NCBI GenBank assembly: GCA_022769825.1
Contig: JALEJI010000073.1
Span: forward strand, 1 to 64,000
DNA: 64,000 nt
Origin: Prevotella sp.
GTDB lineage: Bacteria; Bacteroidota; Bacteroidia; Bacteroidales; Bacteroidaceae
Direction of reading: 5' to 3'
Part shown: in pieces, positions 4,904 to 31,933 of the stretch
Numbering within the stretch: position 1 is the stretch's first letter
Layout of the letters: the number at the start of each line of letters is the position of its first letter
Notes under the pieces: model-generated
What the model was told of the DNA's origin: nothing
The model's input: the letters and a program-made list of their open reading frames with translations, nothing else
The model's database searches: none
Position numbers and translations under genes: made by a program

Positions 4904-4937
4904 GAAATATCAACATCAATCATTATAAAATTTATTC

Positions 4938-7251: not shown

Positions 7252-7287
7252 AAATGTCACCACCCTTTCTGTAGGATGGTGACATTT
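7252..7287. terminator. Hairpin between convergent genes (candidate bidirectional terminator)
   Basis: Inverted repeat AAATGTCACCA (7252-7262) and TGGTGACATTT (7277-7287), perfect over 11 bp with a 14-nt loop. It lies between the 3' ends of the GH89 gene (+) and the DUF5009 gene (-). The T tail is short on both sides, so strength is uncertain. Confidence 0.5.
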
Positions 7288-7307
7288 TCAAATGATGTTG
7301 AGTGGGT

Positions 7308-10179: not shown

Positions 10180-11277
10180 TTATTTGATGTTGAAATATTC
10201 CTTATAGCGGTCGTAGAGGTGATGTGCCTGTATATAAGCCGACTGCGGACTGAGAAAATGTGAGAACTCGAAGGTGATAGCCTTGTCGTAGTGGCACCGT
10301 TTGGCCGCTTCGAGCTTCAGGCGGAGCTTGTCAAACTTGATGGGGAAGAAGCGGATGGGCATGTCACGGTCAAAAGTCTCGGCATTGGTCCAGCACTGCA
10401 TGCCGTATTTGTCGGCGAGCTTCTTGTTGACGGAGAAGAAAGCGTCGAGCTCATCGTAGTCGATGTGTCCGTCCTGGAAGGCACAGCAGTCGACAACATC
10501 GTGTATGCCGTCGAAAATCTCGTTCCATTCGCGCTCATGCTCCTGCACGCTGACAGCCTGGTCGTTGGTCATCTTGCCCGTTCCCATGACGGCTTTTTTG
10601 CCGTCGATCCAAGGAGAGATGAAGACTGGAAGCCCGTTGGACACCTCCTTACAGTGCTTGCCCATGGCGTGGAAGGCGGGTATGGCACCTTTCGTCTGGC
10701 GGGAAATCTCAGTGCTGACGTACCAGCCTTTGAAGCTCTTGTGGTGGCCGTAGCGCTTCCATACCTCGTCGATGACATACTTGTTGTCATCGATTTCCCA
10801 CGACATGTCGCCGGTGTCCCAGTAGTGGCCGGAGTCGTAGAGCCCGAAGTAGAACTTCATGCCGTATTTGTCGGCCAGGCGGAGATACATGTCGATCAGG
10901 TCGACGGAGGGCATGTAGCATCCATGCTTCTTCATCAGGTATTCAGAAGGATAGGTGATGAACTTTCTGTACCCGCACCGGATGACGATGACGGTGTCGA
11001 TGCCGATGGCTTTCATGTAGCGGAAATCCTGTTCCCATTCCTTCACGCCCCAGTTCTGATGGGGTATGTCGTGTGATATCTCGTCGAGGAAAGTGCCGGT
11101 GATGGGCAGTCCGTTGTTTTTAGGCACGATGAGTCCGCCCCCCACGCCTTCGTTGGTGTCGGTAGCGACGGTGCGATGTTGCGTTGTAATGTTTTCGCCC
11201 TTGGTGATGATAGGCGCAGCCATGGCGGCTGCACCTGTCAGCAGGGCTTCTTTCAGAAAATCTCTTCGATTGGTCAT
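10180..11277 (-). CDS. DUF4434 protein with Tat-type signal
   Basis: 365 aa. The N-terminus TNRRDFLKEALLTGAAAMAAP is a good twin-arginine signal, so the protein is probably exported folded. The body (ITGTFLDEISHDIPHQNWGV, GIDTVIVIRCGYR, KYGMKFYFGLYDSGHYW) reads as the DUF4434 family, which has a TIM-barrel, glycosidase-like look. The function is not established. Conserved acidic residues in the barrel (for example YVSTE and TNAETFD) could be catalytic. It lies 51 bp after the GH20 gene and 29 bp before the porter gene in the same operon, so a role on the same glycan is likely. Confidence 0.7.
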   Translation of the reverse strand: MTNRRDFLKEALLTGAAAMAAPIITKGENITTQHRTVATDTNEGVGGGLIVPKNNGLPITGTFLDEISHDIPHQNWGVKEWEQDFRYMKAIGIDTVIVIRCGYRKFITYPSEYLMKKHGCYMPSVDLIDMYLRLADKYGMKFYFGLYDSGHYWDTGDMSWEIDDNKYVIDEVWKRYGHHKSFKGWYVSTEISRQTKGAIPAFHAMGKHCKEVSNGLPVFISPWIDGKKAVMGTGKMTNDQAVSVQEHEREWNEIFDGIHDVVDCCAFQDGHIDYDELDAFFSVNKKLADKYGMQCWTNAETFDRDMPIRFFPIKFDKLRLKLEAAKRCHYDKAITFEFSHFLSPQSAYIQAHHLYDRYKEYFNIK

Positions 11278-11328: not shown

Positions 11329-13326
11329 TTACTCTTTGTCGATCGTCAGGTTGGTGACGCGGCTGTTGAAGTTGCCGGTCTTCTGTACGGGGAAGAAGAG
11401 AGCTCGCTGATAGCGCATGCTGCGTTCAGGCTCATAGGCATCGAGCTGCCAGGTGCGTCCGGGCATGTGGTTAGCTTTGTCAGTGGGCTTGACGACGTAG
11501 AACCGGATCTGTTCGAGCTTTTCTTTCAGTTGCCCGTTGACATAAAGATTGGTAGCTGAAGACGTGTTCTCGATCGTTATCTCTACATGCCCTTCCTTCG
11601 GCAGCGCATAGTCGAAATGGTCGAAGTAGGCCTCACGCTGGAAGCCCAACTTCCCGCTGATGGGATCGGATAGGTAGAACGTGGCATCTGGTCCCGTTGT
11701 GAGGATGGTGCCTTTCTGCTCAGGCTTGCAGTCGATGCTGAACGATATTTTGTGGCCGTAGCCTACTTCATGAACGGGCAGCGACAGTGTTTTATTGGGT
11801 TGCAGGTCGGATATTTTCACAGGAAGGTTGGGCACATAGCCTGACTCGTTCACGCCAGGGGCTTCGCCGAGCTCTTTGCGCTGCGCCTCGAAGGTGTCGT
11901 AGGGCACGGTCGTCAATTGTCCTGTCCAGCACTTTACCGCCATAGCCTGGAGCACCGGCATGATGCGGAGATGGACATCGTGCACAGTGATGCCGTTGCC
12001 GTAGAGATCATTCCACAGCGCGAACATGCCGCCGGCTATCTGTGGGTCTTGCTCTTTGAGTTTCGTGTCGCCGAAGCTGGCGGGTGTCCAGTTCTTATAG
12101 ATATTGTCGTTGGGAAGAATGTCGTGATAGTAGTCGGCCAAAGGTACGGTGTAGACGGTCCAGTCGGGCATGCTGATCATGTTCCATCCGTCAGCCTTCA
12201 TGTCTTTTGTCTTGGCCATGAAAGGAGACCACATACCGAGGATGGCACCTTTAGGATTGACGGGTGTCCTGCCGTATGCGTGGCTCAGCGCTCCCCAGAG
12301 GATGGGTGTCTTGCCGTATTTCTTGATGAGCTCAAGATAATGGCTGGTGTAGGCGCGGAATTTCTCGCGCAGCTCTTCCGTAGCGTTGTTATACTCATCG
12401 GTACCGATGTTTACATATTTCCCGCGGAAGACCGGATTCTTTCCTGATAAGTATTCTTTGAAGAGATTGTCCATGAACGTATAGACCTCGGGGTTCTCAA
12501 GATCGAAGTGGTCCATGCCAAACTCTTTCGAGCCGAGGCTGGGGCGGTAATGTGTGAAAGCGAGGACGTGGGCGGGCGAGTCTATCTCTGGGATGATCTG
12601 TATGCCGTAGCTCTCGGCAAACTGCTGTAGGTCGATCAGCTCGGCCTTGGTATAGTGGCCGTCTTTTGAGGCGAGCCCGGGATAAGTATCGCTCTCGAGC
12701 CTAAAGTCGCCGGGAGTCTTGATCCAGTCGCCGCCAAAGAAGTCCTTGAACGCGTTGTCGTTGAGATGGAGCTGTAGCGTGTTCATCTTATAGTAAGCCA
12801 TGACCCGGATCAGATTTTTCAGGTAGCTTATGGGAAAAAACTTTCGGCCAGTGTCGAGCATAAAGCCGCGTATGCCGTACTGAGGAATGTCTACGGCCTT
12901 GCCTTGTGGCAGGTTGGACTGCTTCTTGAGCATTTGCAGAAGGGTGCGTGTCCCCCAGAAAGCACCGTCCGTCGATGCTGCGGTCAGGGAGCAAGTCTCA
13001 CTGATGTTCAGCCGGTAGCCTTCCTTGCCTAACTTCTTGTCTTGTTTGATTGCGAGCACGATGTCGCCTTTGCCAGGCATGCCTTGGACAACGGTCATCG
13101 TCTTTCCGGTCTCCAGTTGGTAGTCGCGGCATAAATCTTGGGCAGTTTTCGTAAGTTTCTTGTTGCTGACAACCACTCGGCCGGAGAGCGCCATCGTGCC
13201 CTCTGCACCGTTCCACTGCGTCAGCTCCGGAACAACAAACGGCTTGGCATTGGTCTGTGCGGAAGCGCCTGTCGTGGATAGCATCGTTGCTATCAAGACA
13301 GAAACCATAATTATCAATCGTCTCAT
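11329..13326 (-). CDS. GH20 beta-N-acetylhexosaminidase, exported
   Basis: 665 aa with signal peptide (VLIATMLSTTGASA). GH20 enzymes remove terminal beta-GlcNAc or beta-GalNAc by substrate-assisted catalysis. An N-terminal GH20b-like domain precedes the barrel, which begins at YGIRGFMLDTGRKFFP and contains LQLHLNDN, IPEIDSPAHV and the catalytic Asp-Glu pair in NIGTDEYNN (residues 310-311). A C-terminal beta-sandwich-like domain follows from about residue 520. It is the first gene of the minus-strand operon and is divergent from susC across a 427-bp regulatory gap. Family call is firm; linkage preference is not known. Confidence 0.92.
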   Translation of the reverse strand: MRRLIIMVSVLIATMLSTTGASAQTNAKPFVVPELTQWNGAEGTMALSGRVVVSNKKLTKTAQDLCRDYQLETGKTMTVVQGMPGKGDIVLAIKQDKKLGKEGYRLNISETCSLTAASTDGAFWGTRTLLQMLKKQSNLPQGKAVDIPQYGIRGFMLDTGRKFFPISYLKNLIRVMAYYKMNTLQLHLNDNAFKDFFGGDWIKTPGDFRLESDTYPGLASKDGHYTKAELIDLQQFAESYGIQIIPEIDSPAHVLAFTHYRPSLGSKEFGMDHFDLENPEVYTFMDNLFKEYLSGKNPVFRGKYVNIGTDEYNNATEELREKFRAYTSHYLELIKKYGKTPILWGALSHAYGRTPVNPKGAILGMWSPFMAKTKDMKADGWNMISMPDWTVYTVPLADYYHDILPNDNIYKNWTPASFGDTKLKEQDPQIAGGMFALWNDLYGNGITVHDVHLRIMPVLQAMAVKCWTGQLTTVPYDTFEAQRKELGEAPGVNESGYVPNLPVKISDLQPNKTLSLPVHEVGYGHKISFSIDCKPEQKGTILTTGPDATFYLSDPISGKLGFQREAYFDHFDYALPKEGHVEITIENTSSATNLYVNGQLKEKLEQIRFYVVKPTDKANHMPGRTWQLDAYEPERSMRYQRALFFPVQKTGNFNSRVTNLTIDKE

Positions 13327-13753: not shown

Positions 13754-16700
13754 ATGGAACACCTATCTAAAACAAGGCTTTTAAAGCTTTCAAAGGCTTT
13801 CACGCTGATGTTTGGGATGCTATTTTGGACAGTCTTGTCTACGGCAGCTCAGAATGTGGTGAAAGGAACGGTGAAGGACACCGCCGGTGACCTTCTTCCA
13901 GGTGTGAGTGTGCAGGTGAGTGGTGTGCCTGGTGAAGGTGCAATAACTGACCTAAACGGAACTTTTTCTGTCAAGGCATCCGGTAGGGATGAACTTGTCT
14001 TCTCTTACGTTGGCATGAAGCAACAACGCATAAAGGTAAACGGCCGGAAAGTCATTAATGTGACCATGGAGGATGAGGCTTCGACACTCAACGATATTGT
14101 CGTTGTGGGTTATGGCTCAGCCAAGAAGCAGTCGCTCACGGGGGCTGTCTCTGCCATGCGAGGCGACGAACTGCTGAAAGGTCCGTCGACCAACGTTTCC
14201 AGCCTGCTTGGCGGTAAGTTGCCGGGTCTTTCTTCCGTGCAGACCTCCGGTGAGCCGGGCGATGACCAGGCAAGCCTACGTATCCGTGGTTCGCAGTATG
14301 CTCCGCTTTATATTGTGGATGGTATGCCGCGCTCCATCAGCGATGTTGACCCTAACGATATCGAGAGCGTCTCTGTGCTGAAAGACGGATCGGCCGCGGC
14401 TGTCTATGGCTTGAATGCCGCCGGCGGTGTTATCATTGTCACGACCAAGGGTGGTCACAAGGGCAAGCCACAGGTCAGTTACAACGGGCAGTACGGTGTC
14501 TCGGTAAATGCAAACTTCCCGAAGTTTATGAACGCGCCCGAGTTTGCTTACTATTATAATATGGCCGACTATATGGACAAGCTCGCCAACGGCACGGTGA
14601 CAAGTAAGGCCGATTATACCCCTGTGTTTACGAAAGCCAATGTGGAGGCTATGCTCAATGGTGATCCTACGGACGGATGGGATAATGTGGATTATATAGG
14701 TAAGGTGTTTGGTACCGGTACGAATATGAAGCACAATGTCTCGCTGCAGGGCGGCAACGACGACGTGAGCTATTATGTAGGCGGCGGATTCATGAATCAG
14801 AAAGGTAACATTGACAATTTCGATTATCGTCGATATAACCTCCGTACCAATATCACGGCTAAGGTAAATAAAGACTGGACTATCAAGTTGGGAACCATTG
14901 GCACTGTGACACGCAAGCATACGCCGGGCTATGCTTCGGGTGGTGCTGACGACGGAAGTCAAAGCAGCGGTGAGGTAGGTTGGCTGTCTATCGGCCACCA
15001 GGCCATTATGATGCGTCCTTACCTTCCGGAGACGTGGGACGGACTTTATACAGCCACCGTCCCTAACAATGCTTCTGTGGCTTACAGTCCGTTAGCAGCT
15101 ATTTACGACTCAGGTTATAAGAAGACGCGCGGCGCTGAGGTTAACACGAACCTCTCTGTCGAGTATGCTGCTCCATGGTTGAAGGGATTGAAGTTGAAGG
15201 CAACGGGCTCCTACGACTATCTCTCTTCGAAGAGCAAGAACCTCGATACTCCTTATCAGACCTACGTCAAGGATCTTACCACAGGCAGTTTCGCAAAGCT
15301 TGAAGATCCGCGCGATGTTTCTACCAATCTTAATCATGTAGCTGACGGGCAGTACACTACCGAGCAGCTCGTAGGTCAGTTGAGCGCGGAGTTCGCGCGC
15401 AAGTTCGGCAAGCACAATGTGGATGCCATGCTCCTCGTCGAGGGGCGCGACTATAAGTCAAGCTCAATGTCGGCTTATGCTTACAAGGTACCGTTTGCAG
15501 AGCTTCCTGAGCTAAGCTTAGGTACGGCTATCAAAGACGGTCCTGTCAGCGGTTACAGCAGTCATACACGCACGGCCGGCTATGTGTTCCGTATGAAATA
15601 CGATTATGCCGACACCTACCTCGCAGAGTTCAGCGGCCGTTACGACGGTTCCTATAAGTTCAGCGGTAACGTTTCTGGCAAGCGTTGGGGCTTCTTCCCG
15701 TCTTTCTCTGCCGGCTGGCGTATATCCAACGAGAAGTTCATGGAGCGCACGCATTTCTGGCTCAACGACTTGAAGATTCGTGGATCTATCGGGCTCTTGG
15801 GTAATGACGATGTGGCGGCATATTCTTTCCTGAGCACCTATTCCTTTGGTGCCAACCGCGTGATCGGCGGAAACACAGTCAGTTCTCTCTACACCTCCGG
15901 TGTTCCCAATCCCAATTTGAGTTGGGCCAAGACACGCTCTTCCAATGTCGGCTTCGACGCTACGCTGTGGGACGGCAAGCTTGGGCTCTCCTTCGATTGG
16001 TTCTATAACCTCAACTACGACATTCTCACCTATATGGGTGGTAATATGGCTCCGTCCATGGGCGGCTATTATACCACGTATGACAATTATAACCGCTACT
16101 GTAACTACGGACTGGAGTGGACAGTATCGCATCGCAACAAGTTTAACCTTGGCGGAAAGCCATTCCACTATTCGGCAAGTCTCAATATGACTTGGGCAAC
16201 AAGCAAATGGCTCCGTTATCCTGATGATCCTAACACGCAGGAGTGGCGCAAGGTCGTGGGTACGGATGTGGATGCTTATTACATTTGGCTTGACGACGGC
16301 CTTTATCGTTCTGAGGAGGAGATTACAAATTCGGCTTGGTATGGCACACGCCCGAATCTGGGCGATATCAAATATAAGGATCTCAACGGTGATGGTGTCA
16401 TTGACGAGCAGGACCGAGGCCGTTTCGGCCGTAGCAACCGCCCGAAGATTATGGCAGGTCTGAACCTGAGCGCCAGTTGGAATGGTTTCGACCTCAACGC
16501 TCAGTTCACGGCTGGATTCAAGTTTGATGTCTCGCTGCTTGGTACCTATTACAATGGTTACGACGACAACACAGTCTGGAGTCAGACCTTCAAGGAGGGA
16601 GCCAACTCACCGCTCTGGCTGGTGCAGGATTCTTACAGCGAGGACAACCCCAATGCCAAATATCCGCGTATCACGCTCGGTACCGTATCCCATGGCGGCA

Positions 16701-16957
16701 ACAACGGATTGGCATCAAGTTTTTGGAACAAGAAAGGCGACTATGTACGCCTTAAGACCCTGCAGTTTGGTTACACGCTGCCTAAGGCGTGGACTTCGGC
16801 CATTGGCATCCAGAATGTCCGTCTTTATGTGGAAGGTTCCAACCTCTTCACCATCGACAGTCTTCCTACCGGCATCGATCCTGAGTCGCCACGTGTGAAC
16901 AATGGTTACTATCCGCAGCAGCGCACGTTCATGGGAGGAATAAACGTAACGTTTTAA
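13754..16957 (+). CDS. SusC/RagA-type TonB-dependent outer-membrane transporter
   Basis: 1067 aa. SusC-like proteins form the barrel of a 'pedal-bin' glycan importer with SusD as the lid. Visible parts are the signal peptide, a CarboxypepD_reg-like domain (VKGTVKDTAGDLLPGVSVQV, about residues 36-110), a TonB-box-like DIVVVGYG (about 114-121), the plug domain (SLTGAVSA to GVIIVTTKGG) and a long beta barrel ending in an aromatic residue (INVTF). The susD gene follows after 40 bp. It heads an operon of surface lipoproteins and sugar-processing enzymes. Substrate is not evident from the sequence; the downstream enzymes point to an amino-sugar, possibly phosphodiester-containing glycan. Confidence 0.96.
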   Translation: MEHLSKTRLLKLSKAFTLMFGMLFWTVLSTAAQNVVKGTVKDTAGDLLPGVSVQVSGVPGEGAITDLNGTFSVKASGRDELVFSYVGMKQQRIKVNGRKVINVTMEDEASTLNDIVVVGYGSAKKQSLTGAVSAMRGDELLKGPSTNVSSLLGGKLPGLSSVQTSGEPGDDQASLRIRGSQYAPLYIVDGMPRSISDVDPNDIESVSVLKDGSAAAVYGLNAAGGVIIVTTKGGHKGKPQVSYNGQYGVSVNANFPKFMNAPEFAYYYNMADYMDKLANGTVTSKADYTPVFTKANVEAMLNGDPTDGWDNVDYIGKVFGTGTNMKHNVSLQGGNDDVSYYVGGGFMNQKGNIDNFDYRRYNLRTNITAKVNKDWTIKLGTIGTVTRKHTPGYASGGADDGSQSSGEVGWLSIGHQAIMMRPYLPETWDGLYTATVPNNASVAYSPLAAIYDSGYKKTRGAEVNTNLSVEYAAPWLKGLKLKATGSYDYLSSKSKNLDTPYQTYVKDLTTGSFAKLEDPRDVSTNLNHVADGQYTTEQLVGQLSAEFARKFGKHNVDAMLLVEGRDYKSSSMSAYAYKVPFAELPELSLGTAIKDGPVSGYSSHTRTAGYVFRMKYDYADTYLAEFSGRYDGSYKFSGNVSGKRWGFFPSFSAGWRISNEKFMERTHFWLNDLKIRGSIGLLGNDDVAAYSFLSTYSFGANRVIGGNTVSSLYTSGVPNPNLSWAKTRSSNVGFDATLWDGKLGLSFDWFYNLNYDILTYMGGNMAPSMGGYYTTYDNYNRYCNYGLEWTVSHRNKFNLGGKPFHYSASLNMTWATSKWLRYPDDPNTQEWRKVVGTDVDAYYIWLDDGLYRSEEEITNSAWYGTRPNLGDIKYKDLNGDGVIDEQDRGRFGRSNRPKIMAGLNLSASWNGFDLNAQFTAGFKFDVSLLGTYYNGYDDNTVWSQTFKEGANSPLWLVQDSYSEDNPNAKYPRITLGTVSHGGNNGLASSFWNKKGDYVRLKTLQFGYTLPKAWTSAIGIQNVRLYVEGSNLFTIDSLPTGIDPESPRVNNGYYPQQRTFMGGINVTF

Positions 16958-16997
16958 GGCTTCGTGATCACGTTGTAAACTATTAAATCAGCTTATT

Positions 16998-18638
16998 ATG
17001 AAAACGAGATATATTATCGCAAGTCTCCTCATTGCTGCTTCGGGAATGACATCCTGTAACAGTTTCCTTGACATTGACCCTACGGATCAGGCCAGTGACA
17101 AGTTGGTGTGGAGCAACACAAAATATGCCGAGCTGGCAATCAATTATTTCTATGCCGATATACCTACTTTGGGCAGCTTCAGCGACTACCAGTGTCTGGC
17201 GGGTCTGACGGAGGGTCTGACCGATGAGTTTAAGTACGGCAATATGAACTACAATGCCGAATGCTATATTCCCAACGAGATCTCTTATGGCGGAATTGTG
17301 CTGACCCCAAGTTATACCGACACATATATGGGTGTGTGGGGTTCAACCTACGAAGAGATTCGCCGAGTCAACGAGGCTTTGGCAAAGCTGAAGGGCAGCT
17401 CCTTCGACGAGGCTGTCAAGAAACAGTATGAGGGCGAGTTGCGCTTCTTCCGGGGCATGTACTACTTCGAACTCCTTAAGCGCTATGGACAGGCCATTAT
17501 CTACGACGACGATCTCTCGAAAATCAGCACCAACCATGCGCTTGATAAAGCCGACGACTGCTGGAACTTTGTCTATGAGGATCTTCTCTATGCCGGGCAG
17601 AATCTGCCCAACACGACGACGAACAACGGGCGTTTGACGAGCGGAGCTGCCTATGCACTCATGTCGCGTGCTATGCTCTACTGCAAGAACTGGAAAGCCG
17701 TGAAGGAAGCAGCGGAGGCCGTGACGGCTATGGGATACAAACTGACCGGCAATTATGCTGACGCGTTCAAGGCTTCGGGTAACACAGAGGCAATCTACAT
17801 GTATTCGTACAGTGCCGATGCCAGTGTGACACACGACTTCGACGGATATTATGCTCCGGCAGGTGACCATAAGAAGGCCGGTATGACCATGTATGGCGGT
17901 TACGGCACGCCTACACAGGAGATGGTCGAGGAATATGAAAAAGCTGACGGCTCAAAAGTTGATTGGTCTCCTTGGCATACGACGGAAGGCACGTTGGACA
18001 CCCCGCCTTACGAAGAGCTTGAGCCGCGCTTCCAGGCTACCATCCTTTACAATGGTTCGACATGGCGCAAGCGCACCATTGAGCCTTATGTTGACGGCAC
18101 TGACGGTTGGGCAAAGTGGAAAACTGATGCCGTCACGGAAGGCCGCACCACGACCGGCTACTATCTGCGCAAGCTTGTGGATGAAAACCATGACTTCAGT
18201 ATCACGCAGAAATCTACCCAGCCTTGGATTGCTTTCCGCCTTGCCGAGGTGTGGCTCAATGAGGCCGAGGCCTGCCATAACTTGGGCGATGACGCAACGG
18301 CCGTGACGCTTATTAATAAGGTTCGTACGCGCGTCGGCCTGCCAGGCATCAAGGCTTACAGCGACGAGGCTTTACGTCACGAGCGTAAGGTTGAACTCGC
18401 TTATGAGGGACTTTATTATTGGGATATGCGCCGCTGGGGACTCTCTACGAAAGCTTTCACAGGTATTCGCCGTCACGGTCTGAAGATTGAGAAACTGGCC
18501 GAAGGTAAGTTCCGGTACTCTTATGTAGATGTCGATGACGAAAACCTTAATTATCCAGCCAAGATGAACCGCTTGCCCATTCCAGAGAAAGAACTTAACA
18601 ACAACAAGGACCTTGAGCAGTTCAGTGAGTGGAAATAG
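16998..18638 (+). CDS. SusD/RagB-family surface glycan-binding lipoprotein
   Basis: 546 aa. Lipoprotein signal peptide with lipobox SGMTSC (Cys about 20), then NSFLDIDPTDQASDK, the usual start of mature SusD-like proteins. The helical TPR core includes GELRFFRGMYYFELLKRYG, and the C-terminal RKVELAYEGLYYWDMRRWG block is diagnostic. It ends NRLPIPEKELNNNKDLEQ, the usual SusD tail. It works as the substrate-binding lid over the SusC partner encoded 40 bp upstream. Confidence 0.95.
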   Translation: MKTRYIIASLLIAASGMTSCNSFLDIDPTDQASDKLVWSNTKYAELAINYFYADIPTLGSFSDYQCLAGLTEGLTDEFKYGNMNYNAECYIPNEISYGGIVLTPSYTDTYMGVWGSTYEEIRRVNEALAKLKGSSFDEAVKKQYEGELRFFRGMYYFELLKRYGQAIIYDDDLSKISTNHALDKADDCWNFVYEDLLYAGQNLPNTTTNNGRLTSGAAYALMSRAMLYCKNWKAVKEAAEAVTAMGYKLTGNYADAFKASGNTEAIYMYSYSADASVTHDFDGYYAPAGDHKKAGMTMYGGYGTPTQEMVEEYEKADGSKVDWSPWHTTEGTLDTPPYEELEPRFQATILYNGSTWRKRTIEPYVDGTDGWAKWKTDAVTEGRTTTGYYLRKLVDENHDFSITQKSTQPWIAFRLAEVWLNEAEACHNLGDDATAVTLINKVRTRVGLPGIKAYSDEALRHERKVELAYEGLYYWDMRRWGLSTKAFTGIRRHGLKIEKLAEGKFRYSYVDVDDENLNYPAKMNRLPIPEKELNNNKDLEQFSEWK

Positions 18639-18671
18639 TATTGTTTCATACCATTAACAAGATTATCCATT

Positions 18672-20354
18672 ATGAAAACCAAGATATTTAATACCGGACT
18701 GATGCTTGCTTTGGCACTTGCCTTCACGGGCTGTGCTGAGGAGGAGAATGTAGCTCCGACCGCCAACCGTGAGGGTATCACGAGCCTCTCGGCTTATTTC
18801 ACGAGCGGTACTTATCAGGACAAGTTGGCAGCACAGCTCTCCACGACCTCATCGGAGACAACCGACTATGTGATTCCTATTCCTTATTATTATCCGGAGG
18901 AGAGCGACTATGTGCCTTCTGAGGACATGAAGAATATGAAGGTGACGGCAAAGTTGGAGAACAACTGTTTTCTTTCTCCGGGATTAGGCGTGCTCGACTT
19001 AACAAAGAAGAACGAGTTTACGTACACCAACCCTTATGGAGAACAAAAGAAAATAACTATCTCGGGGCAGCTCACGCATCTGAACAAATGTGCTATTAAG
19101 AGTTTTATGGCCGAGCCGGGCGACCTTACGGGGGTCATCGACGAAGAGAGCAAGACTATATCCCTCGTCACGGCTGCCGACCTTTCGGAGATGACAGCCG
19201 ACGTTGTACTCGATCCTCATGCCACCATTTCTCCCGACCCTTCAGTGCCTCACAACTTTAACGACGGTTTCGAGTTTACGGTCACTGCTGACAATGGTGT
19301 GGACAAGTCGACCTACAAGGTTATGAAGCAGATCCCGCCGAAGATCGACAATGGTTATCGTGCAGGCAGCGAGAAAGAGCTGTTTGTCAACGATATGACG
19401 ACACTGGGCGTGAAAGATCCAAATGCCATTCATCCTACCTTGGCCTGCATCGGGAACTTCGTTGTCCTCAACTTGGGTGACGGCAGCGCCCCTCAGTATT
19501 TCCGAAAGGCTACAGGATCAAAGGTCGGAACCATCGCCTTGGGTGAGGCCAAGGCAACAGGAGCTATTGCAAGCGACAATGTAGGCAACATGCTGATATG
19601 TAACTTTGCAGACAACGGTCAGACGCTCAATATCTACAAGACCAACGACGTGACGAAGGCACCCACAAAGCTTATCTCTTATACCAACGGCCTCGGTGTG
19701 GGTATTGGAGCCCGTCTGCATGTGCAGGGTGACCTGAACAGCAATGCTGTCATCACGGCCACTCCTTACAGCTGCAACAATGCCATACGCTGGATAGTAA
19801 AGGACGGCAGGGTCGGAAATCCTGAGAACATCCTCATGTCTGTGGCTGCCTGGGGTGCACAAGACGATGCAGCAAAAGTTGTGGGCGTAGATGCTGAAGG
19901 CAAAAACGGTTCTATCGTCGACTACTATCAGAGTGGAGCATGCCAAATGTACTATCTCTCCGACTGGAAGACTTCTGCGAACCTCGTGCAGGACAATAGC
20001 GGCAATGCCTGGGGGTACAATACTGCAGCCATCGACGTGCGTCCGTTCAATAAAGCGCGTTACCTCACGCTCTTCGAAATGGGTTACTGGCCCGACTGGG
20101 GGTTGACAGGCCATATCTACCTCTACGATGCAAGCAATCCTGCTTCGGTTACCGGAACAACGGATGGCAGCTCCATGTTGAAGTATGCTTACACGATACC
20201 CGACAACTTTGGTTCCGTGGGCTATGCTTCCGACGGCCGCTTCGCTGATGTGCTTGTCACTCCTTCCGAGGACGGTTACTTCCTCTATATCTTCTATGCT
20301 TCCAACACGCACCTGTCGTTTGGCGGCATCCAGGTAGATTGTATCAAGAAATAA
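18672..20354 (+). CDS. DUF5018-type lipoprotein, probable surface glycan-binding protein
   Basis: 560 aa. Lipobox AFTGC followed by AEEEN, an acidic stretch of the type that sends Bacteroidetes lipoproteins to the cell surface. The N-terminal third (ITSLSAYFTSGTYQDKLAAQ, then about 140 residues of Ig-like beta strands) resembles DUF5018. The rest reads as repeated beta strands and may form a propeller or sandwich. I see no catalytic signature. Its position right after susD is where accessory surface glycan-binding proteins are normally encoded. Function is inferred from context. Confidence 0.65.
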   Translation: MKTKIFNTGLMLALALAFTGCAEEENVAPTANREGITSLSAYFTSGTYQDKLAAQLSTTSSETTDYVIPIPYYYPEESDYVPSEDMKNMKVTAKLENNCFLSPGLGVLDLTKKNEFTYTNPYGEQKKITISGQLTHLNKCAIKSFMAEPGDLTGVIDEESKTISLVTAADLSEMTADVVLDPHATISPDPSVPHNFNDGFEFTVTADNGVDKSTYKVMKQIPPKIDNGYRAGSEKELFVNDMTTLGVKDPNAIHPTLACIGNFVVLNLGDGSAPQYFRKATGSKVGTIALGEAKATGAIASDNVGNMLICNFADNGQTLNIYKTNDVTKAPTKLISYTNGLGVGIGARLHVQGDLNSNAVITATPYSCNNAIRWIVKDGRVGNPENILMSVAAWGAQDDAAKVVGVDAEGKNGSIVDYYQSGACQMYYLSDWKTSANLVQDNSGNAWGYNTAAIDVRPFNKARYLTLFEMGYWPDWGLTGHIYLYDASNPASVTGTTDGSSMLKYAYTIPDNFGSVGYASDGRFADVLVTPSEDGYFLYIFYASNTHLSFGGIQVDCIKK

Positions 20355-20365
20355 GGCAAGGCAGT

Positions 20366-21436
20366 ATGAAAACCAACAGGTTATCTTCAGTCTTATTTCT
20401 GTCTCTTTGCTGCTTGGGAGGCCTCTTTGCCTCCTGCAGCTCAGAGGATCATGAGGACATCCTGTCTAAATGGTCTTGGGACAGAGAAGAGCCTAATCCC
20501 GACATCGTAAGCCAGGGATGGATCAATGTGCGATCCGATTTTGGTGTGAAGACATCTTATCTCGACATCTACAAACTGACGAAGACGGATAAAGGCGATT
20601 CCGTCATTGCTTTCATCGCCGTGGCAGACATGTCGCAGGCTAAATTCTCTGTCAGCTCTGATATTCATTGGGACGACGAGGCACAGGGCAATGGTAACGA
20701 CAAGGTCTACACACCTTCGGAGTTTTATGCCAAGGACGGTCAACCCTTGGTCGTCATTAACGGTGGTCTCTTCTTCTATGACAACAGTTCAAAGAAGACA
20801 GGTTTCTACTATTCGCAGAGTTCTTGCTACAGTGGTGGAAACATGCTCAGTCCTAACCAGAACTATTGGTCGGAAGACTGGACTAACTTCTGGTATCCTA
20901 CCATCGGATTTTTCTTTCAGGACAAGAACAAAGACTTTCATGCCACATGGACTTATTATGCCAACGACGGAAAAGACTATAGTTATGCCGACTGCAAGGT
21001 CATCGACCGTTCTACTCCCGAGACCTCTGCTCCCGATGCCACTCATCCCTCCAAGGGCACAGTGCTCAACGATGGCACTTCGGTCAACGGCATCGGCGGC
21101 GTGAGCGTGCTCATTCATGAAGGCAGGGTTCGTGATACGTGGAAGGATGAGTTGCTCGATGTCAGCGCTTCTTCTAAACAACCCCGTACCGCCATAGGCT
21201 ATATAGGAGCAAACAAGAAGCTCGTCTTCTTTGTCTGTGAAGGCCGACAAATGACTAAAGGCGTGAAAGGTCTGACCACAGCAGAAGTGGCAAGCTTGCT
21301 CAAAGCTGTCGGGTGCACAGAAGCCCTCAACCTTGACGGCGGAGGCTCGTCGTGCATGATTGTCAAAGGTCAGCAGACAATTAAGCCCAGCGACGGTCAT
21401 GAACGTAAGGTGCTTGATGCCTGCTATATACAATAA
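20366..21436 (+). CDS. Phosphodiester glycosidase (NAGPA/DUF2233) family lipoprotein
   Basis: 356 aa from the ATG at 20366; the ORF-track TTG start at 20339 would overlap the upstream gene and precede the signal peptide (MKTNRLSSVLFLSLCCLG). Lipobox LFASC, then SSEDHED, an acidic surface-export-like tail. The catalytic domain has VVINGGLFFYDN, GGVSVLIHEGRV and LNLDGGGSSCMIV, the conserved blocks of the family that includes the mammalian 'uncovering enzyme', which removes GlcNAc from GlcNAc-1-P-mannose. It starts 11 bp after the DUF5018 gene and 6 bp precede the next lipoprotein. The segment HEDILSKWSWD just after the Cys recurs in that next protein. Confidence 0.87.
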   Translation: MKTNRLSSVLFLSLCCLGGLFASCSSEDHEDILSKWSWDREEPNPDIVSQGWINVRSDFGVKTSYLDIYKLTKTDKGDSVIAFIAVADMSQAKFSVSSDIHWDDEAQGNGNDKVYTPSEFYAKDGQPLVVINGGLFFYDNSSKKTGFYYSQSSCYSGGNMLSPNQNYWSEDWTNFWYPTIGFFFQDKNKDFHATWTYYANDGKDYSYADCKVIDRSTPETSAPDATHPSKGTVLNDGTSVNGIGGVSVLIHEGRVRDTWKDELLDVSASSKQPRTAIGYIGANKKLVFFVCEGRQMTKGVKGLTTAEVASLLKAVGCTEALNLDGGGSSCMIVKGQQTIKPSDGHERKVLDACYIQ

Positions 21437-21442
21437 TAGAAT

Positions 21443-22858
21443 ATGAAACGAATATCTTTTGCAACACTCATCGTCCTGTTCTTTTCCGTACTCAGCACGT
21501 TCTCAGCTTGCAGCACGGAGAATCACGAGGACATCTTGGGCAAATGGACATGGGACGGTAACGAAGACACCACGGTTGTCACGGCTAAGCCACGCTATAT
21601 CTGGATTGATGCAGCGGCCAACTTCGCCCGCTTTGCCAACAGTAAGGAGAACATTGAGGAAGACCTTACGAAAGTGAAGAATGCTGGGTTCACCGATATT
21701 ATCGTGGACGTGCGTCCCACGATGGGCGATGTGCTCTTCAACAGTTCGCATTGCCCGCAGGTGACGAAGCTCGACTATTGGACCGACAGCGGGCAGTATC
21801 AGTTCTATGAGCGCACGGCCACGTGGGACTATCTTCAGGCCTTCATCGACATCGCACACAAGCTCGGTCTGAAAGTCACGGCGAGCATGAACACTTTTGT
21901 CGGCGGCAACCTCTATGCTTACGGCTTAGGCGAGCAAGGTCTCGTCTTCCGCGACGCTGCGAAGAAAGATTGGGTGACGACGCTCAATATGGCTGATGGA
22001 CCGGTCAACGAGATGGACCTAACGACCACAGATCCGTCGGATGCAGCCTTCTATGGCACGAAGTTTCTGAACCCTGTCAACAAGGATGTTCAAGACTATC
22101 TCATCAGTATCATCTCCGACTTGGCTCAATACAATGTCGATGGCATCTGTCTCGACCGTTGCCGCTTCGACAACCTGACATCCGATGTGTCTGACTATAC
22201 GCAGCAGAAGTTTAAGGAGTACTTAGGTGTCAGCGACCTCGACTTCTTCACTGATGTTATCAAGCCCGAATCAACCACGACGAGTGAGAACAGCGGCAAG
22301 AAGTATTTCAAAGACTGGATTGCTTTCCGTGCCAAGACAATCTGCGATTTCGTCAAGCGCGCTTCTGAAACCGTGCATGCCGTCAACAAGAACATTAAGT
22401 TCTCAACTTATGTCGGTGCCTGGTATTCATCTTATTCGCCAGAGAGCGGAGTCAACTGGGCAAGCAGCAGCTACGATGCTTCCGCGGCATACAGCTGGGC
22501 CAACAGCGACTATCAGAAATACAGTTATCTGTCTTCGCTCGACCAGATCTTCCTCGGTTGCTATGCAGGCACCGATGCAGTTTATGGCGATGGTGAATGG
22601 ACGATGCAAGGCTTTGCCAAGCAGGGACAGAACCTTATTAAAGGTGAGGTGCCTTTCATCGGCGGCCCGGATGTCGGCAATTCGACAGGTTTCACTCAGG
22701 GTGGACAAGGCGATGCGGTCACTAAGAGCGTAGATGCTATTATCAATGTGGCCGATGGCTATTTCGTCTTCGATCTGTGCCATGTCAGGGAGTATGACTA
22801 CTGGGATGCGCTGAAGAAAGGCATAGATGCCTATTTGGAATCGCTCAGTTCCAAATAG
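21443..22858 (+). CDS. GHL10-like (family 10-like) putative glycosidase lipoprotein
   Basis: 471 aa. Lipobox FSAC, then STENHEDILGKWTWDG, nearly the same module as in the preceding lipoprotein. The barrel starts with GFTDIIVDVRPTMGDVLF and includes HKLGLKVTASMNTFV and VDGICLDRCRFDN, which resemble the PF02638 'glycosyl hydrolase-like 10' / alpha-amylase-like group. Probable catalytic acids are the Asp in GICLDR and a later Asp/Glu; I cannot assign them firmly. It probably sits on the cell surface with the phosphodiester glycosidase. Substrate unknown. The stop codon lies inside a perfect hairpin (22831-22858). Confidence 0.75.
   Translation: MKRISFATLIVLFFSVLSTFSACSTENHEDILGKWTWDGNEDTTVVTAKPRYIWIDAAANFARFANSKENIEEDLTKVKNAGFTDIIVDVRPTMGDVLFNSSHCPQVTKLDYWTDSGQYQFYERTATWDYLQAFIDIAHKLGLKVTASMNTFVGGNLYAYGLGEQGLVFRDAAKKDWVTTLNMADGPVNEMDLTTTDPSDAAFYGTKFLNPVNKDVQDYLISIISDLAQYNVDGICLDRCRFDNLTSDVSDYTQQKFKEYLGVSDLDFFTDVIKPESTTTSENSGKKYFKDWIAFRAKTICDFVKRASETVHAVNKNIKFSTYVGAWYSSYSPESGVNWASSSYDASAAYSWANSDYQKYSYLSSLDQIFLGCYAGTDAVYGDGEWTMQGFAKQGQNLIKGEVPFIGGPDVGNSTGFTQGGQGDAVTKSVDAIINVADGYFVFDLCHVREYDYWDALKKGIDAYLESLSSK
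22831..22858 (+). repeat. Perfect hairpin spanning the stop codon of the GHL10-like gene
   Basis: CTATTTGGAA (22831-22840) and TTCCAAATAG (22849-22858) are exact reverse complements with an 8-nt loop, and the right arm contains the TAG stop. There is no T run, so it is not a standard terminator. It could stabilise a 3' end or reduce expression of the downstream genes, which start 139 bp later. Confidence 0.5.
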
Positions 22859-22997
22859 GGAGTCGTCAGTTCTTCGGTCGGAATCTATGGGTTCCCCATT
22901 TAGAATCAATAGGGCTTGGAAACGGAAAGGATGATAGCGGTCACTTTTTAGTGGCGCTGTGTATTTATTGACATTTACAACTTATAACTATATAGCT

Positions 22998-24194
22998 ATG
23001 ATGGATAAAAAGGAATATTTAAGACATTGGGCCGACTCATATAAGCGCGACCTGACGGAGAACATCATGCCGTTCTGGATGGAGTACGGCTGGGACCGTA
23101 AGCACGGCGGCGTTTACACCTGTGTCAATCGCGATGGATCACTGATGGACACCACGAAGAGCGTGTGGTTTCAGGGTCGCTTCGCTTTTGTCTGCGCCTT
23201 TGCTTACAACAATGTGGAGCATCGTCAGGAATGGCTCGACGCGGCGAAGAGCACCATCGACTTCTTTGAGAAATACTGTTTCGACAAGGACGGCCACATG
23301 TACTTCTCTGTTACCGAGGACGGCAAGCCGTTGCGCAAGCGCCGTTACGTGTTCAGTGAGACCTTTGCTGCCATAGCGCTCTCCGAGTATGCCATCGCGA
23401 CGGGCGACAAGGGATGTGCCCAGCGTGCCCTCAAGATTTTTGAGGATACCCAGCGCTTCCTCAGCACTCCGGGTTTCCTGGAGCCTAAGTTTGAGCCGGA
23501 GGTGAAGCTGCAGAGCCACAGCATCGTGATGATCCTTATCAATGTGGGCTCGCGCATCCGTGCCGTCATCGATGATCCGGTGCTCACACAGCAGATCGAC
23601 GAGAGTGTGGAGAAGCTGCGCCGTTACTTCATGCACCCTGAGTTTAAGGCTCTCTTGGAGAGCGTAGGCCCCAACGGTGAGTTCATCGACACGAATATGA
23701 CCCGTACCATCAACCCGGGACATTGCATCGAGACCGCCTGGTTCCTCATGGAGGAGGCACGCTATCGCAACTGGGACAAGCGGTTGCTCGACACGGCTCT
23801 GACCATCTTCAACTGGTCTTGGGACTGGGGATGGGACAAGGAATACGGAGGCATCATCAACTTCCGCGACTGCAAGAACCTGCCGCCGCAGGACTATTCG
23901 CAGGACATGAAGTTCTGGTGGCCGCAGTGCGAGACGATCATCGCCTCTCTGTATGCTTACCTTGCGACGGGCGACGACGAGTATCTCTACCGCCACCGTC
24001 AGATCAGCGAGTGGACTTATGCCCACTTCCCCGATAAGGAGTTTGGCGAGTGGTATGGTTATCTGCACCGCGACGGCACCGTGGCTCAGCCGGCCAAGGG
24101 CAACCTCTTCAAAGGGCCGTTCCATATTCCGCGCATGATGACAAAGTGTTACACCCTCTGCAACGACATCTTAGCCACCTTGAATCAGCAATAG
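22998..24194 (+). CDS. N-acylglucosamine 2-epimerase (AGE/RnBP) family protein
   Basis: 398 aa from the ATG at 22998 (the next codon, 23001, is also ATG); the GTG at 22959 in the ORF track adds a peptide that does not look native. No signal peptide, so it is cytoplasmic. The (alpha/alpha)6-barrel fingerprints are present: FQGRFAFVCAFAYNN, YVFSETFAAIALSEYA, NPGHCIETAWFLMEEA and FKGPFHIPRMMTKCY, with the catalytic His residues in GHC and FHIPR. Members interconvert GlcNAc and ManNAc, or epimerise or isomerise other sugars such as cellobiose and mannose. Here, next to amino-sugar enzymes, GlcNAc/ManNAc is a reasonable guess. It follows the surface lipoproteins and is 16 bp ahead of the phosphoesterase gene. 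Confidence 0.87.
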   Translation: MMDKKEYLRHWADSYKRDLTENIMPFWMEYGWDRKHGGVYTCVNRDGSLMDTTKSVWFQGRFAFVCAFAYNNVEHRQEWLDAAKSTIDFFEKYCFDKDGHMYFSVTEDGKPLRKRRYVFSETFAAIALSEYAIATGDKGCAQRALKIFEDTQRFLSTPGFLEPKFEPEVKLQSHSIVMILINVGSRIRAVIDDPVLTQQIDESVEKLRRYFMHPEFKALLESVGPNGEFIDTNMTRTINPGHCIETAWFLMEEARYRNWDKRLLDTALTIFNWSWDWGWDKEYGGIINFRDCKNLPPQDYSQDMKFWWPQCETIIASLYAYLATGDDEYLYRHRQISEWTYAHFPDKEFGEWYGYLHRDGTVAQPAKGNLFKGPFHIPRMMTKCYTLCNDILATLNQQ

Positions 24195-24210
24195 CAATCG
24201 TATTCAAGAA

Positions 24211-25224
24211 ATGAGAAAACTCTTCTGTTTACTGTTCTTGTGCCTGTCAATGACCTCGCTGGCACAAGAACTGAAGTTCCGTAAGAACGGTGAGTTCAAG
24301 ATCGTTCAGTTCACCGATGTCCATTACAATGGTTCCCGTCAGTCTCAAGTGGCGCTGAGTGTTGTAGACAGCGTGTTGCTGCATGAACGTCCCGACCTCG
24401 TGGTGCTCACAGGCGATGTGCTTTGGGGGCCTCCGGGAAAGGAAAACCTGCTGACGGTCTTGGGACGTATCTCGCAATATGATGTTCCGTTCGTCTATGA
24501 GTTTGGCAATCACGACAGTGAGATGACGGGCATGAGCAACAGGGAGCTATATAACCTCGCGCGCACGGTGAAAAACAATCTGTTGCCTGATCTCTCTGCG
24601 CAGAAAGAGCTCGACTTCACGCTGCGTATCCTTTCGCATGATGGCAGGAAGACGGCAGCAGTGCTCTACTGTTTGGATTCTCACAGCTATCCGGTGGGAT
24701 TCCCCAAGGACAAGCGTCACGGTACCTACGCCTGGCTCACTTTTGACCAGATAGCGTGGTACCGGCAGCAAAGCGCTGCCTTTACGAAAGAAAATGGCGG
24801 GAAGCCCTATCCGGCGCTTGCCTTCTTCCATATTCCCGTGCCGGAGTATCACGATGCCGTGAAGGACGAGAACGCTGTCCTTATTGGTACGCGCCGCGAG
24901 ACAGTCTGTTCGCCCGACTTCAACAGTGGCATGTTTACGGCTATGCACATGGGTGGAGATGTCATGGGCATCTTCTGTGGACATGATCACGACAACGACT
25001 ATGCCGTGATGTGGCACGACATTCTTTTAGCTTATGGCCGTTTCTCTGGCGGAAACACGGTCTATAACCATCTGCCCTGTGGGGCCCGCGTCATCATCCT
25101 TAAGGAGGGCAAGCGCAGCTTCGATACCTACATTCGTGAACGAAAGGGAAAGGTGCTCGATGAGTCGACCTATCCCGACAGTTATACCTCAGATGAATGG
25201 GAGAAACGTCCTTTGGAAAATTAG
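24211..25224 (+). CDS. Calcineurin-like metallophosphoesterase, exported
   Basis: 337 aa with signal peptide (LFCLLFLCLSMTSLAQ). Dimetal phosphoesterase motifs appear in order: QFTDVHYN, VVLTGDVLWG, YEFGNHDSE, ALAFFHIPVPEY and IFCGHDHDND. The group includes purple-acid-phosphatase-like and ICC-type phosphodiesterases, so the substrate may be a phosphomonoester or phosphodiester. In this operon it could remove phosphate exposed by the phosphodiester glycosidase. It is 16 bp after the epimerase gene, and its last 32 nt overlap the start of the FAD oxidoreductase gene in another frame, which suggests translational coupling. Confidence 0.87.
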   Translation: MRKLFCLLFLCLSMTSLAQELKFRKNGEFKIVQFTDVHYNGSRQSQVALSVVDSVLLHERPDLVVLTGDVLWGPPGKENLLTVLGRISQYDVPFVYEFGNHDSEMTGMSNRELYNLARTVKNNLLPDLSAQKELDFTLRILSHDGRKTAAVLYCLDSHSYPVGFPKDKRHGTYAWLTFDQIAWYRQQSAAFTKENGGKPYPALAFFHIPVPEYHDAVKDENAVLIGTRRETVCSPDFNSGMFTAMHMGGDVMGIFCGHDHDNDYAVMWHDILLAYGRFSGGNTVYNHLPCGARVIILKEGKRSFDTYIRERKGKVLDESTYPDSYTSDEWEKRPLEN

Positions 25225-27079
25225 TCTGTCGCTGATTCTCTCAGCCGTTATGCTGCTTCCCTGCCGAGGCGCACGATATGATGTCGTGGTCTACGGTGGG
25301 GGAAGCAGTGGTGTCTGTGCCGCTGTGCAGAGCGCGCGGCTCGGTGTCCGTACGCTTCTTGTCGAGCCTACATCCTGGCTCGGAGGTATGCTTACTGCTG
25401 CCGGCGTGAGTGCCGTAGACGGCAACTACCGGCTGCCCAGCGGACTGTGGGGCGACTTCAAGGACGCGTTAGTCAGACATTACGGATCGCCGGAGGCGTT
25501 GAAAACCGGTTGGGTGAGCAACGTGATGTTTGAGCCGCAGACCGGCGACAGCATCTTCCGTGCCTGGGTCGCGGCGGAAAAGAATCTCACTTACGTATCT
25601 GGTTACGTGCTTTCAACTGCGACAAGGCTTCGAGACTGTTGGTGTCTGACCTTCACGGACGGCAGAAAGAGGATGCGTGTCGAAGCTGCCTATGCTGTTG
25701 ATGCGAGTGAGCTTGGTGACCTTGCGGCTATGGCGCGCTTGCCTTATAGGTTAGGCATGGACAGTAGGGCAGAGACAGGAGAAAGAGAGGCTCCCGAGAA
25801 AGGCAATGATATCGTTCAGGACCTGACTTATTGCGCTACGCTGCGGGCCAGACGAGGAGCCCGTCTGTTGTCCCGTCCCCGGAATTATGATCCTCGTGAG
25901 TTTCGCAATTGCTGTCTTCATGCCGGCAACGACTCTACGACGCGGCAGAAGTTGTGGCCGGCATCTATGATGATTAGTTACGGCCGTTTGCCCAACGGTC
26001 TTTATATGGTCAACTGGCCCATCCATGGCAACGACTATTATCTGAACGATGTGTGCGATGCTCCTGCCAAGCGCCGGTCTTTGGAAGAGGCTGCGAAGCA
26101 AAAGACCCTACGTTTCGTCTATTTCATGCAGCATGAGTTGGGTGCTGACACCTTGGAGCTTGTCGACATCTATCCCACTGCCGACCATCTTCCGCTGATT
26201 CCTTACTATCGCGAGAGCCGTCGCTTTCGCGGGGTCGTAACGTTTACCATCAACGATCTTCGCCATCCTTATACTGATACCACCCGTCCACTTTATCGCA
26301 CGGCAGTAGCTGTGGGCGACTATCCGGTGGACCAGCACCATTATGCTTATCCGCGCCGTGACCTTCCCGACATGAACCTTTTCACGGTGCCGTCGTTTGG
26401 CCTGCCATTAGGTACGTTGCTTCCGGAGAACGAAGACCGTCTGCTGTTGGCAGAAAAGAGCATCTCCGTGACAAACATTGTCAACGGAGCTACCCGTCTC
26501 CAGCCCGTCTCCATGCAGATCGGTCAGGTGGCCGGTACGGTTGCTGCCATGGCCGTAAGCAATCATTGTTCTCCGCGCTTGTTGTCGGTAAGGAGTATTC
26601 AGGCACAGTTGTTGAAAGAAGGTATGTATCTGCTGCCTTATCTTGATGTTGATAAGCATTCACCTCTTTTCGGCCCTTTGCAGCGCATCGGTGCAACGGG
26701 AATGCTCAGAGGAGAAGGAAAGCATATCGACTGGCAGAACCAGACGTGGATCAATGCCGACAGTCTGCTCACGCGCGCTGATCTCCGTTTCTTCCGAGAC
26801 GTTTATCCACATTTTAATCCGCCCATGGACGGAGGTCGGTTCGTCAGTTTATCCGACTTTCTCCTTATTCTTCGTGCTTTGGATAGCAGCCTGTCCTCGT
26901 TGACGGTTGATCGGGCGCAGGCGGTTCTTGGTACCTATAATATAGCGGCTGCTCATGCTTTCGTCTGTCTGACGCGTGCACAGGCTGCTGTCCTTCTCGA
27001 CCAGTTTCTTCATCCTTTTGAGCGGAAGGAGATTGACTTGTCGGGGAAAATAATATCTGATTATATAGATGTCCGCTAA
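25193..27079 (+). CDS. Exported FAD-dependent oxidoreductase (FAD_oxidored type)
   Basis: 628 aa from the ATG at 25193. The ORF-track start at 25034 lies well inside the upstream gene and lacks a signal peptide; from 25193 the protein begins NGRNVLWKISLSLILSAVML, a good signal peptide. Mature protein starts with ARYDVVVYGGGSSGVCAAVQ, the FAD-binding Rossmann motif, then EPTSWLGGMLTAAG. A later segment (LLAEKSISVTNIVNGATRLQP) is typical of the PF12831-like group found in many Bacteroidetes PULs. The substrate of these proteins is generally unknown. It is the last gene of the susC operon and could oxidise a released sugar or aglycone. Confidence 0.85.
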   Translation: MNGRNVLWKISLSLILSAVMLLPCRGARYDVVVYGGGSSGVCAAVQSARLGVRTLLVEPTSWLGGMLTAAGVSAVDGNYRLPSGLWGDFKDALVRHYGSPEALKTGWVSNVMFEPQTGDSIFRAWVAAEKNLTYVSGYVLSTATRLRDCWCLTFTDGRKRMRVEAAYAVDASELGDLAAMARLPYRLGMDSRAETGEREAPEKGNDIVQDLTYCATLRARRGARLLSRPRNYDPREFRNCCLHAGNDSTTRQKLWPASMMISYGRLPNGLYMVNWPIHGNDYYLNDVCDAPAKRRSLEEAAKQKTLRFVYFMQHELGADTLELVDIYPTADHLPLIPYYRESRRFRGVVTFTINDLRHPYTDTTRPLYRTAVAVGDYPVDQHHYAYPRRDLPDMNLFTVPSFGLPLGTLLPENEDRLLLAEKSISVTNIVNGATRLQPVSMQIGQVAGTVAAMAVSNHCSPRLLSVRSIQAQLLKEGMYLLPYLDVDKHSPLFGPLQRIGATGMLRGEGKHIDWQNQTWINADSLLTRADLRFFRDVYPHFNPPMDGGRFVSLSDFLLILRALDSSLSSLTVDRAQAVLGTYNIAAAHAFVCLTRAQAAVLLDQFLHPFERKEIDLSGKIISDYIDVR

Positions 27080-28149: not shown

Positions 28150-28196
28150 GGTTCCTTATGTTTGTCCTTGTGGGCCAAAGTCAGGTGAAAGACTCC

Positions 28197-29768: not shown

Positions 29769-29936
29769 GATTGTTAGTAATTATTGGTAAAAAAAATATT
29801 TTGTTTTAGTATCTATTCGGTCTTGTTTCATGTTAACGGCAATAGAGGCAATCGTTGACGATATTGTCTCTGTTGTCTCTATTGTCGTTAAGTTATGCTC
29901 GCGTTTCGAATTTATGCGGTTGTTTTTGAGGATTTG

Positions 29937-31820: not shown

Positions 31821-31857
31821 GATATAATTATTGTGTGTTGTACTTGGTTATGGCTCA

Positions 31858-31865
31858 CGAAAATA
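31858..31865 (-). promoter_or_regulatory. Candidate -7 element for the GH84 gene
   Basis: On the minus strand the bases read TATTTTCG, the same variant of TAnnTTTG seen at the susC promoter, 38 bp before the GH84 ATG. I see no good -33 TTTG at the expected distance. Confidence 0.3.
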
Positions 31866-31933
31866 AAAAGTGTAGACTTGCAGCTAACTTTATAATTTGA
31901 ATAAGTCTGATGCACACACCATGTGTGCCTTTC

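Follow-up and report, generated by a model that had tools for sequence, protein, structure and literature searches.

A conserved Bacteroidales gene cluster with a NAGPA-family lipoprotein: a polysaccharide utilization locus possibly directed at a phosphate-containing amino-sugar glycan

Introduction

Which glycan is served by a Bacteroidales gene cluster that joins a SusC/SusD uptake pair to a lipoprotein of the NAGPA family (PF09992), a GHL10-type protein, a sugar epimerase and a phosphoesterase? The question is raised by positions 13754 to 27079 of a 64,000-nucleotide stretch of DNA from Prevotella sp. (GenBank assembly GCA_022769825.1, contig JALEJI010000073.1, positions 1 to 64,000), here called the window, in which a previous sequence-only reading had seen a polysaccharide utilization locus (PUL) for a phosphodiester-containing amino-sugar glycan. 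PF09992 genes lie in many Bacteroidetes PULs, and the cluster offers a well-posed test case. It is real, conserved and uncharacterised in the literature searched, in which nothing was found on the function in PULs of PF09992, DUF2233, DUF5018 and GHL10 proteins or of the genes as a set. We give about an even chance to its being a conserved Bacteroidales PUL for a glycan that contains phosphate and N-acetylhexosamine (HexNAc), including N-acetylmannosamine (ManNAc).

Gene content and conservation of the cluster

Reading of the open reading frames and Pfam bore out eight co-directional plus-strand genes and the families previously given to them. They encode a SusC/RagA TonB-linked transporter (13754..16957; TIGR04056, 929 bits), a SusD/RagB lipoprotein (16998..18638; PF07980, 187 bits), a DUF5018 outer-membrane lipoprotein (18672..20354; PF16410, 387 bits; lipobox FTGC), presumed to be a surface glycan-binding protein, the NAGPA/PF09992 lipoprotein (20366..21436, with its ATG start at 20366), a GHL10 lipoprotein with an additional DUF4985 domain (21443..22858; PF02638, 49 bits; PF16373, 101 bits), an N-acylglucosamine 2-epimerase of the AGE/NanE type (22998..24194; PF07221), an exported calcineurin-like phosphoesterase (24211..25224; PF00149) and an exported FAD-dependent oxidoreductase (25193..27079; PF12831, 296 bits). 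A PUL is recognised by a SusC-like and a SusD-like gene lying side by side, together with glycan-active genes in the same orientation; this arrangement is present, and on this point the sequence-only reading was right. Lipoboxes are present in the DUF5018, NAGPA and GHL10 proteins, signal peptides in the phosphoesterase and the oxidoreductase, and none is found in the epimerase. The epimerase most likely starts at the ATG at 22998, the listed GTG at 22959 being unlikely, and the oxidoreductase most likely at 25193, which includes the signal peptide, rather than at 25034. With these likely starts the intergenic gaps run from about -32 to +139 nucleotides, consistent with one transcription unit.

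Related loci, 27 in number, come from at least six Bacteroidales families; among the groups represented are Prevotella/Segatella and a second genus that is probably Bacteroides. The core common to the loci consists of SusC, SusD, DUF5018, NAGPA, GHL10, AGE, a metallophosphoesterase (MPP), the FAD oxidoreductase (FADox), DUF4434, an MFS porter, DUF5009 and a NagC-like ROK regulator. Because the loci were collected via NAGPA, this gene is present in all 27 by construction; the loci are related by descent, so that the counts are not independent, and they are lower bounds, several loci ending at the end of a contig or of the fetched stretch. On these terms SusC is present in at least 24 loci, SusD in at least 25, DUF5018 in at least 24, GHL10 or a second type, GHL10b, in at least 25, AGE in at least 22, DUF4434 in at least 21, MFS and DUF5009 in at least 18 each, FADox in at least 16 and ROK in at least 12. 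The SusC proteins of syntenic loci are 37-73% identical to that of the window. Another Prevotella metagenome-assembled genome (MAG) keeps the window order SusC-SusD-DUF5018-NAGPA-GHL10-AGE-MPP-FADox at 59-86% identity (locus L023) and carries DUF4434-MFS-GHL10b-DUF5009-ROK on its divergent side. This retained order, together with the related sets in the 27 loci, argues that the genes are not a chance row.

Searches at the family, order and genus level found the cluster in 18 of 151 genomes of the second genus, as well as in several other families; there the usual order is ROK, then FADox-DUF4434-MFS-AGE-SusC-SusD-DUF5018-NAGPA-GHL10-MPP2-SASA-GHL10b-DUF5009, and a scan of the collection added six loci besides one in Prevotella illustrans. 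Within the genus of the window the distribution is patchy, a close NAGPA/GHL10 pair occurring in one of 35 sampled genomes. The sequence-only reading could name no published PUL with just these genes; that could hold for function, but the cluster itself is widespread and not unique. The single-contig genome G745 of the second genus (6,472,489 bases) has the full cluster (L126-L127), facing a second PF09992-SASA-DUF5009 set, and would open the cluster to genetic work straight away. In another Bacteroidales MAG (L029, 3419-6610) SusC is split into two frames by a frameshift or an assembly error.

NAGPA, GHL10 and the recurrent phosphoesterase

The NAGPA protein scores 90.3 bits against PF09992 (gathering cut-off 25 bits) and is the only PF09992 gene product found in its genome. 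Its lipobox, FASC, is followed by the acidic stretch SSEDHED; acidic residues after the lipobox cysteine are linked to surface export in Bacteroidetes. All family motifs (NGGxF, RT-A/S-x-G, acidic-G and NLDGGGS) are present, the last of them read as NLDGGGSSC, in keeping with what had been noted before. In the structural model (predicted local distance difference test, pLDDT, 61) the first fold match is BACOVA_00430 (3ohg; E 2.5e-13), followed by vertebrate NAGPA (E 1.7e-10), both at probability 1.00. The protein is thus a true PF09992 member, as had been claimed. Phosphodiester glycosidase activity of this family has been published for the human enzyme, and the product of 20366..21436 is predicted to be a HexNAc-1-phosphodiester glycosidase. 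All NAGPA proteins of the PUL clade conserve NGGxF, PR(T/S)AIG, CEGR and NLDGGGS; the CEGR stands where vertebrate and BACOVA proteins have VDGQ or VDGR, with glutamate instead of aspartate as the acidic residue.

The neighbouring GHL10 protein is assigned by its PF02638 domain and its fold, and is predicted to cleave glycan chains. The closest fold to its model (pLDDT 66) is Cwp19 (5oq3; E 4.4e-14), a peptidoglycan lytic transglycosylase of Clostridioides difficile (PMC6016235); at about 15% identity this likeness is a lead, not an assignment. Placement of GHL10 in CAZy family GH179 was considered and dropped, since GH179 is listed as NAD-dependent (PMC11701701). NAGPA and GHL10 of the window begin with similar stretches of ~40 residues (C-S-x-E-x-HEDIL-x-KW-x-WD), alike also at the DNA level (20366-20528 and 21443-21611), and the NAGPA leader seems to have been copied onto GHL10, as the aligned GHL10 proteins of other loci have a different leader.

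The phosphoesterase keeps all metal-binding motifs (DxH, GD, GNHD, H and GHxH) in the alignment of its orthologues. Its company with NAGPA, proposed earlier as a synteny check, is found in at least 22 of the 27 loci. A PF00149-alone match lies within 8 kb at no fewer than 7 of 17 NAGPA orthologue loci (0.8 expected), and a phosphoesterase lies within 12 kb of PF09992 paralogues in 8 or more of 22 cases (1.5 expected), both being lower bounds drawn from 150 of the 171 phosphoesterase matches. Two types without mutual blastp match fill this place, PF00149 alone in Prevotella and MetallophosN-PF00149-MetallophosC in other Bacteroidales. That the phosphoesterase and the epimerase have each been refilled from different sources in different lineages suggests that both activities are probably needed.

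These data bear on the view that the cluster is a HexNAc-glycan PUL of the ordinary kind, with NAGPA and the phosphoesterase as accessory genes whose products meet no phosphodiester substrate and instead, for instance, hydrolyse an intermediate or serve as binding proteins. Prevotella illustrans has two more PF09992 PULs (L019, 3879-18392, and L020, 10267-19336) with quite different partners, namely BACON, DUF6528, GH3 and a phosphoesterase fused to PQQ repeats; the mere presence of a PF09992 gene beside SusC/SusD therefore fixes no substrate, and metallophosphoesterases are abundant in general (5-18 per genome among the matches listed). Conservation of every signature motif, the over-representation of phosphoesterases around PF09992 genes and the exchange of one phosphoesterase type for another all run counter to an accessory role, and we consider this view decidedly unlikely.

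The epimerase and the source of ManNAc

The amino-sugar link drawn by the sequence-only reading is upheld by the epimerase family in the loci, that of N-acyl-glucosamine 2-epimerase, and by the regulator in relatives, whose best match is NagC. The closest solved chain to the window epimerase is an N-acylglucosamine 2-epimerase (8bry, 423 bits). Its counterpart in other Bacteroidales loci reaches 730 bits against the corresponding NCBIfam equivalog and passes the 600-bit cut-off; the window protein is placed in PF07221, with no more than a likeness to the equivalog. Phylogeny of the cluster epimerases resolves a deep split into two clades, but not most of the inner forks; identity to the window protein is 82-86% in one clade and about 36% in the other.

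Lacking a signal peptide, the epimerase is predicted to be cytoplasmic, and its catabolic sense would be the conversion of ManNAc to N-acetylglucosamine (GlcNAc), not the processing of GlcNAc released by NAGPA. This alters the route envisaged by the sequence-only reading, in which a polymer decorated with GlcNAc-phosphate, such as phosphomannan, is uncovered at the surface and dephosphorylated, and the freed GlcNAc is then epimerised. Although the family name and motif of NAGPA and the presence of a phosphoesterase and an epimerase speak for that scheme, GlcNAc breakdown needs no epimerisation, the enzyme appears to be intracellular, and a source of ManNAc is required. Phosphomannan finds no support, no alpha-mannan enzymes (glycoside hydrolase (GH) families GH92, GH76, GH99 and GH125) having been seen within the PUL or among the annotated genes on either side. 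The scheme as a whole is very improbable; a phosphate-containing HexNAc glycan is retained from it as the best reading, and the step order must change.

Could the ManNAc come from sialic acid? The rival view takes the substrate to be host glycans that are sialylated and O-acetylated, mucin for example, with NAGPA and GHL10 acting on phosphate-free glycosidic bonds, the epimerase serving as NanE and the esterases as sialate O-acetylesterases. The cluster of Prevotella illustrans, like that of Segatella baroniae, continues into SASA-NanM-NanT-NanA-AGE, and in both the epimerase is that of the adjoining nan operon. Two further genomes, G067 and G156, have GH33, GH20, GDSL and SASA-NanM genes joined to the cluster, G067 also having NanT-NanA-AGE, so that a nan-operon epimerase adjoins the cluster there. 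The window neighbourhood, with GH20, GH84, GH89, GH109 and an NahK-like kinase, fits this view as well. Against it, GH33 occurs in only two and NanA in three of the 27 loci, the recurrent phosphoesterases are left unexplained, and one locus belongs to a MAG, AS27yj, whose name hints at an origin outside a host. Moreover, no NanA orthologue was found in 10 of the 16 genomes tested (the window genome and nine others), which have the cluster and a DapA-like gene only; in the window genome, which is 86% complete, the sole DapA/NanA-family gene is 24% identical to NanA and no PF13088 (GH33) match was found. In those ten genomes the epimerase would thus have no part in sialic acid use, and ManNAc should come from the glycan. 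The joining of nan and GH33 genes to the cluster in several species, a minority of the loci, keeps the sialylated-glycan view in play, though we hold it unlikely. The narrower idea that the epimerase signals sialic acid breakdown, prompted by the nan genes of P. illustrans, was rejected for the window because neither a NanA orthologue nor a GH33 match was found in its genome at 86% completeness and no NanA orthologue was found in most of the other genomes tested.

A proposed route and candidate substrate

The phosphate-containing HexNAc glycan thus remains our preferred reading, and the following account of substrate, activities and step order is built on gene content, conservation, family membership and predicted localisation. 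DUF5018 and SusD would bind the glycan at the surface, where the NAGPA lipoprotein would cut it at a HexNAc-1-phosphodiester and the GHL10 lipoprotein within the chain. SusC would import the fragments, the periplasmic phosphoesterase would strip phosphate from the exposed phosphomonoester, and the MFS and DUF5009 proteins in the inner membrane would take in the free amino sugars. The cytoplasmic epimerase would convert ManNAc to GlcNAc, and in relatives the NagC-like ROK protein would control the cluster. DUF5009 possibly belongs to the MurT/NagF permease family; the NagF permease of S. maltophilia shares 35% identity with MurT, a permease for N-acetylmuramic acid (MurNAc) (PMC13055268). The combination of phosphoesterase, PF09992 protein, HexNAc 2-epimerase, GHL10, NagC-like control and a possible MurT/NagF-type permease points to a HexNAc polymer in which both phosphate and ManNAc are present.

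The linkage unit of wall teichoic acid in Gram-positive walls, ManNAc-beta1,4-GlcNAc-alpha1-P-6-MurNAc, has all the bonds concerned. Tentatively, and at a probability well short of even, we rank it first among named glycans. The cluster may accordingly be a PUL for the phosphodiester linkage region of Gram-positive walls, that is, the linkage unit with the adjoining peptidoglycan, in which the PF09992 'uncovering enzyme' would cleave GlcNAc-1-P-6-MurNAc and the epimerase would recover ManNAc; this too is a doubtful proposal.

Several observations weigh against the preferred reading. The CEGR of the PUL clade, in place of VDGQ/VDGR, may mean a different specificity. The models of NAGPA and GHL10 are of moderate quality, the window epimerase scores 343 bits against the equivalog (cut-off 600), in a few loci the cluster is joined to genes of sialic acid metabolism, and the core holds neither a glycerophosphodiesterase nor an amidase, which a full teichoic acid or peptidoglycan pathway might want. 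In the work of Das et al. (2013), BACOVA_00430, to our knowledge the only bacterial PF09992 enzyme tried with GlcNAc-P-mannose, was reportedly about 1% as active on it as the human enzyme, so that enzymes of this family may cleave linkages of another kind.

If true, the wall-directed proposal would describe a nutritional route from the cell walls of neighbours to Bacteroidetes and give bacterial PF09992 enzymes a natural role. The cluster itself, kept across at least six families with its phosphatase and epimerase exchanged for unrelated or distant versions, predicts a polymer with phosphate and ManNAc that is a frequent encounter for Bacteroidales of the gut and rumen.

Surroundings of the locus in the window

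The stretch as a whole has the character of an amino-sugar neighbourhood. Starting 427 nucleotides upstream of SusC, a divergent minus-strand series comprises, in order of position, DUF5009-MFS-DUF4434-GH20. The first gene of the series encodes a GH20 beta-hexosaminidase (11329..13326; PF00728, PF02838), which lies outside the conserved core, related GH20 genes adjoining the PUL in a minority of loci. Three core genes follow: DUF4434 (10180..11277; PF14488), for which we know of no function and whose solved close relative (PDB 4h41, 637 bits) is titled 'putative alpha-L-fucosidase'; the MFS sugar porter (8741..10150; PF00083), 58-83% identical to its homologues in other loci; and the NagX-like inner-membrane protein DUF5009 (7308..8738; PF16401), which scores 45 bits against the NagX model, under its cut-off of 480. 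GH31, GH127-like and GH89 genes make up the outer flank (290-7118), and an SDR gene, GH109, GH84 and an NahK-like N-acetylhexosamine 1-kinase (210 bits to 4ocu) the downstream flank (27370-33067). The GH89 alpha-N-acetylglucosaminidase gene adjoins that of the DUF5009 protein (4938-8738); the NagX model is named for a transmembrane glucosamine N-acetyltransferase, and the pair is reminiscent of HGSNAT and NAGLU, which act in the breakdown of heparan sulfate.

No match to the Bacteroidetes-type promoter pattern was found upstream of the PUL, and promoter and terminator scans gave about what shuffled sequence would give. Elsewhere in the window the pattern matches at 33587-33617, 37059-37089, 46535-46565 and 58899-58930 (0.5 expected), one of these preceding an enolase gene.

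Comparison with known systems

Among single proteins, BACOVA_00430 of Bacteroides ovatus (3ohg, DUF2233/PF09992) shares family, fold and the PRT(A/S)(I/V)G and NLDGGGS motifs with the window NAGPA, but is only about 20% identical, lies outside the PUL clade and has VDGR where the window protein has CEGR. Vertebrate NAGPA has the same catalytic domain family and motifs at 16-18% identity, whereas the window protein is a bacterial lipoprotein in a PUL. Cwp19 shares its Pfam family and fold with the window GHL10, which lacks cell-wall-binding repeats and has the extra DUF4985 domain. The nan operons of Bacteroidetes are linked to the cluster both by their fusion to it in some species and by the window epimerase, 78% identical to NanE of a Prevotella nan operon (L057); they differ in the NanA orthologue and GH33 that were not found in the window genome at its 86% completeness. 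Like other SusC/SusD PULs of Bacteroidetes, the cluster as a whole has a SusC/SusD pair with a lipoprotein at the surface, enzymes there and in the periplasm, a transporter in the inner membrane and, in relatives, a regulator; it is set apart from them by a conserved set built on PF09992, GHL10, AGE, phosphoesterase, FADox, DUF4434 and DUF5009.

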